Positions 3,998 to 5,419 of a stretch of DNA of 64,000 bases are shown here, piece by piece (position 1 is the first letter of the stretch; each line of letters starts with the position of its first letter). A program made the translations under genes and the position numbers. The notes under the pieces are model-generated. The model saw only the letters and a list, made by a program, of their open reading frames with translations. It ran no database searches and was not told where the DNA came from. The stretch is from the NCBI GenBank assembly GCA_025642075.2, contig JAODUO010000143.1, positions 457,501 to 521,500 of the forward strand, read 5' to 3'. The DNA comes from Ridgeia piscesae (taxonomy: Eukaryota; Annelida; Polychaeta; Sabellida; Siboglinidae).

Positions 3998-5359
3998 TCA
4001 AATGTCTGCGATGACCTCGCAGGTGACCACCTCGTTGGTAGGGGACAACACCCTGGGGGGTGTCTGACACCGGTGCTGCTTGTCTAGTCCGGGAGACTGG
4101 ACGCTGGCGCTGACCGCTTTGTGCTTCTTCTGTCCAATCACCTCACCGCTGTGCGTACGCCGGCCTGGCCGCCAAATGGCGCTGAAGACGTCAAGCGGAC
4201 TGGACATTGACCGGGCATGGTCCGGCAACTGACCAGTCTTCTGTGAACACTTGCTGTGTGAACCGCAGCCGCACTCGGTGGACACTCGACTTCTGACCGC
4301 GATCTCGGGACTGGACGACAGCGACTTGACCCCAGGCGAACTGTGGCCGCTGTCACTGCGACTCTTCCTCATGCTGCTGGTCAGTCCAGTGACCGGTGAG
4401 TGGCCAGATTTGACCGGTGCCGGACCGCTGTAGACGTGACTGCGCGGCCGCTCCAGCTCCCAGTAGATGGGTGATGTACGGCCGGAGCAACCGCGGCTGT
4501 GGAGGTCATCTGACGATGATGACACAAACAGACACTGGCGTCTCGCCGCAAGCACCGACGGTGACGTGATGAGTGGAGGAGTGGGGGGAGACACCCTCGA
4601 TGTGGCACTAGTTGGTGACACCCTCGATACGGCACTAGTTGGTGACACCCTCGATACGGCACTAGGGTGACACTGTGGTGACACTGGTCGCGTCGCGGCG
4701 TCATTGGGCATATGGAATGTTGGTGACGAGTGCCCTGACAGCAGTGACAGTCGCGGTGTCCATGGCGGCGATTCGTCCAGTCTGGTTGGACATGACCCCT
4801 TAGTGATACGGTCACACAGTGGACTGTCAACCATCTCTCTGTCTATCATATGCCATGACCGTGACGGCTGGACCGCGACCGTGCTTCTGACACCGTCCGC
4901 ACACGCAGACTGTGGACGCCCCCTATTGGCCATGTCCAGAACTGCTGCCGGAACGCTGCTTACTGACATCGAGTCGACGCACGGCACATACCTCGCGGTG
5001 AGTGGCAGCTGAGGCGTGCTGCCACCTGGCGATGACAAAATGTACTTTGAGTTCGAGCGATGGCTTAAATTCGGACAACTGTCGCGGACAATAGGATCCC
5101 TCCGTCCCGCGACACACGCGTCCAAACTGCAACCACCAGGTGAAGCTGTCAGTCGCTGCGCCCCGCACTTGGTGCATGTCTTCTTCGCGTTGACGCGGAT
5201 TGTCACATCGGTGCTCGTGCTCCGCGTGCAGAACGACTTGTGCGACAAAGGTCGCATCAACACGTCGCACGGACATGGCGCCACGAACCAGCCAGTGTCG
5301 AGGATGTAGCGCCGCTCGGCGTCGGAGCACCCGCTCATCGCCAGGTGGGGCTCCAGTAG
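3998..5359 (-). CDS. In-frame 453-codon extension behind the KLHL stop (readthrough tail or separate ORF)
   Basis: The codon after the KLHL UGA opens a 453-codon reading frame in the same frame as KLHL, ending with TGA at 3998-4000. It is GC-rich with a high share of G/C at third codon positions, unlike the AT-rich flanks, which argues for coding. The first part carries CPCDVL and TCTKCG cysteine motifs. The rest is Ser/Pro-rich with three RVSP repeats (around SAVSRVSPTS), many SP/TP sites and a basic-serine stretch (RKSRSDSGHSSPG). The first ATG (MSGCSDAERR) is at 5338, only 21 bases past the stop. I recognise no domain. Three readings are possible: readthrough C-terminal domain (protein about 1024 aa), an independent ORF reached by reinitiation or another transcript, or a long open 3' UTR. 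Confidence 0.62.
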   Translation of the reverse strand, partial: LLEPHLAMSGCSDAERRYILDTGWFVAPCPCDVLMRPLSHKSFCTRSTSTDVTIRVNAKKTCTKCGAQRLTASPGGCSLDACVAGRRDPIVRDSCPNLSHRSNSKYILSSPGGSTPQLPLTARYVPCVDSMSVSSVPAAVLDMANRGRPQSACADGVRSTVAVQPSRSWHMIDREMVDSPLCDRITKGSCPTRLDESPPWTPRLSLLSGHSSPTFHMPNDAATRPVSPQCHPSAVSRVSPTSAVSRVSPTSATSRVSPPTPPLITSPSVLAARRQCLFVSSSSDDLHSRGCSGRTSPIYWELERPRSHVYSGPAPVKSGHSPVTGLTSSMRKSRSDSGHSSPGVKSLSSSPEIAVRSRVSTECGCGSHSKCSQKTGQLPDHARSMSSPLDVFSAIWRPGRRTHSGEVIGQKKHKAVSASVQSPGLDKQHRCQTPPRVLSPTNEVVTCEVIADI

Positions 5360-5365
5360 TCAGCT
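5360..5365 (-). promoter_or_regulatory. Candidate stop-codon readthrough signal (UGA CUA)
   Basis: The KLHL stop is UGA followed directly by CUA, the core of the readthrough context known from several animal genes (strongest form UGA-CUA-G; here the next base is C). It precedes 453 in-frame sense codons. Function is inferred. Confidence 0.55.
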
Positions 5366-5419
5366 GTTTGGCAGCTGGACGACACTCGCGCCAGCGCGTC
5401 CGGTGCCCAGTGGCGCTAC
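5360..5419 (-). CDS. KLHL5: KLHL exon 9: closing Kelch strand and first stop (UGA)
   Basis: Acceptor GCTGTTGTAG, then VAPLGTGRAGASVVQLPNS and TGA. This matches the vertebrate KLHL4/5 ending VAPLCLGRAGACVV almost position by position, so the join to exon 8 (TQ-VAPL) is secure even though it needs a GC-AG intron. The stop is TGA CTA, followed by a long in-frame open region. Confidence 0.9.
   Translation of the reverse strand, partial: VAPLGTGRAGASVVQLPNS

Follow-up and report, generated by a model that had tools for sequence, protein, structure and literature searches.

A conserved 453-codon open frame behind the UGA-CUA stop of a BTB-Kelch gene in Ridgeia piscesae, a candidate for programmed stop-codon readthrough

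The window analysed here, a stretch of 64,000 nucleotides from the annelid Ridgeia piscesae (contig JAODUO010000143.1), contains a BTB-Kelch gene with a stop codon, UGA, that is directly followed by CUA CUG GAG, behind which the same exon and frame stay open for 453 codons. The locus raises the question of whether this extension encodes protein and, if so, how ribosomes reach it. The UGA ends a protein of 570 aa, the stretch behind it is conserved, and comparison with related proteins makes it probable that a minority of ribosomes go on to a longer product of about 1,024 aa, nearly twice the length of the short form. The best reading of the case appears to be conserved programmed UGA readthrough, as in Drosophila kelch.

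In the spliced model, the 570-aa protein is encoded by nine in-frame exons on the minus strand (17587-5360), separated by eight introns that are all of the GT-AG type except the last (GC-AG):

17308..17587, minus strand: KLHL coding exon 1, with the start ATG and the BTB domain (Pfam BTB)
15589..15785, minus strand: KLHL coding exon 2 (AG/GT splice sites, frame kept)
14661..14873, minus strand: KLHL coding exon 3 (spliced model)
13821..14010, minus strand: KLHL coding exon 4 (spliced model)
12666..12890, minus strand: KLHL coding exon 5, with kelch repeats (Pfam Kelch_1)
10684..10846, minus strand: KLHL coding exon 6 (spliced model)
9005..9217, minus strand: KLHL coding exon 7 (spliced model)
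6774..6945, minus strand: KLHL coding exon 8, the next intron having a GC donor, gcacgt (spliced model)
5360..5419, minus strand: coding head of exon 9, VAPLGTGRAGASVVQLPNS-stop (aligned with the homologues P0004, P0006 and P0007)

Two exon frames were submitted to Pfam and matched BTB (1.7e-23) and Kelch_1 (4.5e-25), which places the protein in the BTB-Kelch family, while KEAP1 chain 6wcq_C (full-length KEAP1) aligns to KLHL residues 15-565. From sequence motifs only, the gene is presumably of the KLHL1/4/5 type. The short form ends in ..TQVAPLGTGRAGASVVQLPNS-UGA. In the last kelch intron (6773-5420), use of the GT donor lying 4 nt beyond the GC donor gcacgt would shift the frame off the conserved C-terminus.

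Two introns of this gene end in repeat arrays. Intron 7 carries, just upstream of the real exon 8 acceptor, a 33-copy 50-bp minisatellite with 95% matches (6961-8626, minus strand), the unit of which comprises an acceptor-like CTTCAG and the first ~26 nt of exon 8; the exon 8 start recurs in 31 copies (at most two substitutions) and the acceptor-like junction in 33, and the array possibly offers dozens of decoy 3' splice sites. The second such array, in intron 5 (10847-12089, minus strand), repeats TTGCAG together with the first bases of exon 6, the 26-nt acceptor plus exon start being present 19 times and the 19-nt exon start 27 times (at most two substitutions). Both arrays look as if they were seeded from their own 3' splice junction. 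Elsewhere in the window, a 732-codon open frame on the plus strand (54816-57014) is rich in Ser, Thr and Val, contains SSSVSP repeats and, by eye, an apparent transmembrane stretch, and has no Pfam match at E 1; it perhaps encodes a mucin-like surface protein. An open frame at 40062-40595 (minus strand) matches the Pfam family dsrm, a double-stranded RNA binding motif, at 9.9e-9. Open frames rich in Cys and His overlap one another at the end of the window (63400-63839, minus strand) and might, by eye, be C2H2 zinc-finger coding sequence read in wrong frames.

The stop codon and the open frame behind it comprise the following features:

5360..5362, minus strand: UGA stop, predicted readthrough site (W in all three homologues that span the column)
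5357..5359, minus strand: CUA, readthrough-promoting 3' context (from the sequence; motif as given in excerpts of PMC4132726 and PMC4207609)
4001..5359, minus strand: predicted readthrough extension of 453 codons (seven homologues)
5336..5338, minus strand: first in-frame AUG of the extension and rival start (present in Lamellibrachia satsuma, missing from P0004, P0006 and P0007)
4590..4673, minus strand: 27-bp tandem repeat that is translated into the RVSP repeats (missing from P0001-P0003)
3998..4000, minus strand: final stop TGA (from the sequence)

The preliminary description had reported an in-frame extension of 453 codons behind UGA-CUA, together with a short form of 570 aa and a long form of about 1024 aa. 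Both statements hold, as the extension runs from 5359 to 4001 on the minus strand and the spliced model yields 570 aa (570+1+453 = 1024). When the tail was shuffled 5000 times with its dinucleotides preserved, the frame never remained open for 453 codons (mean 44, longest 302 codons). A GC-rich tail beside an AT-rich flank, also described earlier, is borne out by GC contents of 58-62% in the tail versus 19-41% in the last intron (500-base windows). The coding-like third positions claimed for the tail are less clear than stated, since codon statistics alone do not single out the frame (KLHL-codon score -0.133 bits/codon versus -0.118 in frame 2; GC1/2/3 = 0.543/0.603/0.669). The RVSP repeats noticed earlier are present, but they are the product of the 27-bp tandem repeat and are missing from P0001-P0003. 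The claim that the tail is coding is thus drawn from homologues, not from composition. Poly(A) signals (AATAAA or ATTAAA) are found neither in the tail nor from the tail end down to position 2000.

Homologues were sought in a database of 5.8 billion proteins with the 446 residues from the first Met of the tail as query, about 8000 candidates being scored per search. At least seven tail homologues were identified, with E values from 6e-158 to 5e-7. P0001, a 430-aa protein of the deep-sea tubeworm L. satsuma, shares 65% identity over 100% coverage (E 6e-158); judged by this one named hit, the window's genome most likely belongs to an annelid close to Lamellibrachia. P0002 and P0003 from ENA contigs share 46-47% identity with the tail; P0004 was found with the 1024-aa fused query and scored on the tail, while P0005, P0006 and P0007 were added by profile search. 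The motif R..TPPR..SP and the final C..IADI are common to all eight sequences (the window and the seven homologues), and three regions stand out:

5267..5299, minus strand: DTGWF...CPC block at the tail head (GWF invariant in the four junction rows)
4451..4474, minus strand: SPIYWELE motif (YWELE in six of the eight sequences)
4001..4063, minus strand: conserved C-terminus TPPRVLSPTNEVVTCEVIADI (alignment)

P0006 and P0007 contain Y-x-E in place of YWELE. The IADI terminus is reached by all seven homologues, six of which end there while P0004 runs on, so that relatives keep the frame open, as a readthrough gene had been expected to do; these are database proteins only, among which broken copies would escape notice. 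The source genome contains one match to the tail, a second copy not being found in it, and P0004 and P0006 each have one match there (E up to 10), located at this locus and running across the TGA. Searches for homologue DNA in viral and genome contig collections gave 37 and 39 pattern matches, of which none was confirmed. No Pfam family is matched at E 1 by the tail or any of its seven homologues (0/8), and the AlphaFold model of the tail has a mean pLDDT of 43, with a helix at residues 13-22 and otherwise no confident fold; the tail is thus predicted to be mostly disordered. Judged by these alignments, the extension is real coding sequence.

How the tail is joined to the kelch domain can be read from four junction rows, P0004, P0006, P0007 and the window, the other four of the seven homologues starting behind the junction. 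In all three junction-spanning homologues, the kelch C-terminus (CTGRAGACVVHL[KR][NT]S) passes with unchanged frame into the tail (L-x-[ED]-PHL....[CI]....E), and the column of the window's UGA is occupied by W:

P0004: GRAGACVVHLKNS-W-LLEPHL
P0006: GRAGACVVHLRTS-W-LAEPHL
P0007: GRAGACVVHLKTS-W-LGDPHL
Window: GRAGASVVQLPNS-*-LLEPHL

Over the four rows, 11 of 19 columns before the stop and 11 of 31 after it are invariant. These rows bear on the proposal that the tail is a separate protein started at AUG 5338, either through reinitiation or on an mRNA made from a separate promoter. The prospect of a separate frame from 5338 had been raised in the preliminary description, and it has some support, as the Met is kept in L. 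satsuma, where the tail has a protein entry to itself, and the AUG has G at -3. However, the column of this AUG is occupied by L, Y or H in the three junction-spanning homologues, the stop-to-AUG segment L-x-[E/D]-PHL is conserved, and P0002 and P0003 are called from other Mets than 5338; reinitiation after an open frame of 570 codons would also be unusual. The conserved codons between UGA and AUG and the loss of the Met from these three homologues speak against a start at 5338 as the general mechanism, and we regard this explanation as very unlikely.

It is slightly less probable again that a tail-bearing form removes the UGA by alternative splicing, either by using an acceptor downstream of the stop or by excising a mini-intron. 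In-frame acceptor-like AGs do lie behind the stop, before 5351 and 5315 (within 160 nt of the exon 9 start), the stretch scanned contains 16 in-frame GT..AG pairs of at least 40 nt that span the stop, and all four junction rows code E at 5315, where an AG could hence be conserved. Yet the acceptor at 5351 is without a pyrimidine tract and that at 5315 has a broken one, P0007 codes D at 5351, the codons of which cannot end in AG, and neither acceptor explains the conserved protein residues directly behind the stop, across which P0004, P0006 and P0007 run unspliced.

The W shared by three distant homologues at the UGA column could also be UGG, with a plain fusion in those lineages, and a constitutive UGG fusion could then be ancestral, the window's UGA reflecting either faulty assembly or a nonsense mutation of recent date. 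The gene calls themselves argue against this. Residues 1-51 of P0007 correspond to kelch exon 8 translated in a frame shifted by one base; back-translated with this shift, they score 202 against exon 8 of the window when W is TGG only versus 237 when TGA is allowed (maxima of 60 shuffles, 85 and 92, respectively); TGA at five of the eight Ws restores the D and E of YDG, NEVE, CYD and TNEW. The open frame of P0007 was thus evidently called with UGA=W. P0004 has a W directly behind IADI, where seven of the eight sequences end, followed by 94 residues without counterpart, and was probably translated in the same way. Because P0007 was called with UGA=W and P0004 has a W also at its final stop, the junction Ws probably stand for UGA codons that the gene caller translated as W, and W is here no evidence for UGG. 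In L. satsuma, too, gene calling separates the tail from the kelch protein, and no annotated protein of about 563-1790 aa combining kelch repeats with the tail was found, in a search that was limited to the candidates with most words in common and did not recover P0007 (713 aa). An ancestral UGG fusion is accordingly very unlikely, more so than either a start at 5338 or splicing.

As regards the RNA, the earlier suggestion that UGA-CUA is a leaky context agrees with reporter data, in which CUA behind UGA is enough for readthrough (excerpt of PMC4207609), and UGA-CUAG is found in four mammalian readthrough genes (excerpt of PMC4132726); the strongest motif has G after CUA, where the window has C. 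Local structure behind the stop is nothing unusual (z +0.81; -0.62 to +1.19 over four lengths), and a local stimulatory stem-loop is unsupported by these fold z-scores. A perfect long-range helix of 14 bp came to light in a scan for repeats, and its tests are therefore post hoc:

5335..5348, minus strand: 5' arm of the 14-bp long-range helix, from nt 12 after the stop (nt 12-25)
5022..5035, minus strand: 3' arm of this 14-bp helix (nt 325-338 behind the stop)

A 14-bp helix with its arm starting at nt 5-45 occurs in 2 of 2000 synonymous-codon shuffles, and an equally long helix anywhere in the tail in 3 of 300. Its mean pairing probability is 0.66-0.97 (partition function, folds of 340-500 nt), and its duplex energy is unremarkable, 43 of 500 shuffles being as good. 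In the available part of PMC4132726, 3' structures are mentioned for Drosophila kelch, and pairing over a long distance for a plant virus.

The fold across the stop and a search for selenoprotein elements bear on recoding of the UGA, either by A-to-I editing to UGG, which would fit the W at this column, or as selenocysteine, which would fit the UGA itself. ADARs disfavour a 5' G, which the edited A would have here, and the fold across the stop is ordinary (z -0.86). No match to a SECIS family is present in window positions 1-7000 up to E 10. Recoding of either kind is the least probable of the explanations considered.

As a control, the 628-Mb source genome was searched for kelch genes, which gave 84 matches and 30 loci, of which 20 were analysed; the 10 left out are three exons of the window's KLHL gene and seven partial matches. 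The in-frame extension behind the stop measures 0-46 codons, with a median of about 10, in the 18 of these 20 paralogues that were matched to the C-terminus, and none of the 20 ends in UGA-CUA.

The conserved protein sequence behind a weak stop signal suggests programmed readthrough, in which some ribosomes probably pass the stop occasionally. A near-cognate tRNA would decode the UGA in its weak UGA-CUA context, possibly assisted by the 14-bp long-range helix that begins 12 nt downstream. The short form would be a kelch adaptor of the usual kind. The long form would in addition carry a mostly disordered Ser/Pro-rich arm, in which the DTGWF/CPC head, YWELE and the fixed C-terminus ..VTCEVIADI may serve as docking sites; this C-terminus resembles a docking motif that a PDZ domain might bind. 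The strongest counterpoints to readthrough are the Met 5338 of L. satsuma with its separately listed tail protein, and the fact that the UGA is seen directly in one species.

Very long readthrough extensions are unusual in cellular genes, the textbook case being fly kelch, which lies in the KLHL2/3 branch. With a little less than even confidence, we propose that a kelch gene distinct from fly kelch contains an ancient regulated UGA switch, in which a disordered docking arm of 450-600 aa with a fixed C-terminus has been kept over deep spiralian time and a long-range helix starting 12 nt behind UGA-CUA is used; giant extensions would then have arisen more than once on BTB-Kelch adaptors. A second BTB-Kelch gene with a conserved giant tail behind UGA-CUA, in worms, would suggest that evolution has repeatedly let a kelch adaptor switch its length at the termination step. 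Annotations of such genomes would then truncate the protein at its stop and enter the tail separately as a hypothetical protein, which is the situation in L. satsuma.

In the parts available of the literature on kelch/KLHL5 and on spiralian stop codon readthrough, this gene was not found; the list in Jungreis 2011 could include the case. The window's gene resembles OPRL1, OPRK1, AQP4, MAPK10, LDHB and MDH1 in having CUA directly behind the UGA (excerpts of PMC4132726 and PMC4207609), while, unlike in the UGA-CUA(G) genes, its next base is C and its extension comprises 453 codons versus 13 residues in MAPK10 (excerpt of PMC4132726). As an annelid gene for which readthrough is proposed from conserved sequence behind the stop, it is similar to that of the Platynereis FVa/EFLGa precursor, which is however a neuropeptide precursor and not a kelch adaptor, the evidence there being conservation together with antibody staining (available part of PMC3890597). 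The closest likeness in architecture is to Drosophila kelch (kel), a BTB-Kelch gene with a UGA and then one very long in-frame extension, the short form being complete alone; its UGA readthrough extends the product from 76 to 160 kDa (excerpt of PMC4132726), and the readthrough form is also treated in the accessible portions of PMC3840789 and PMC13170385. Unlike in Drosophila kelch, the stop context of the window's gene is UGA-CUA.
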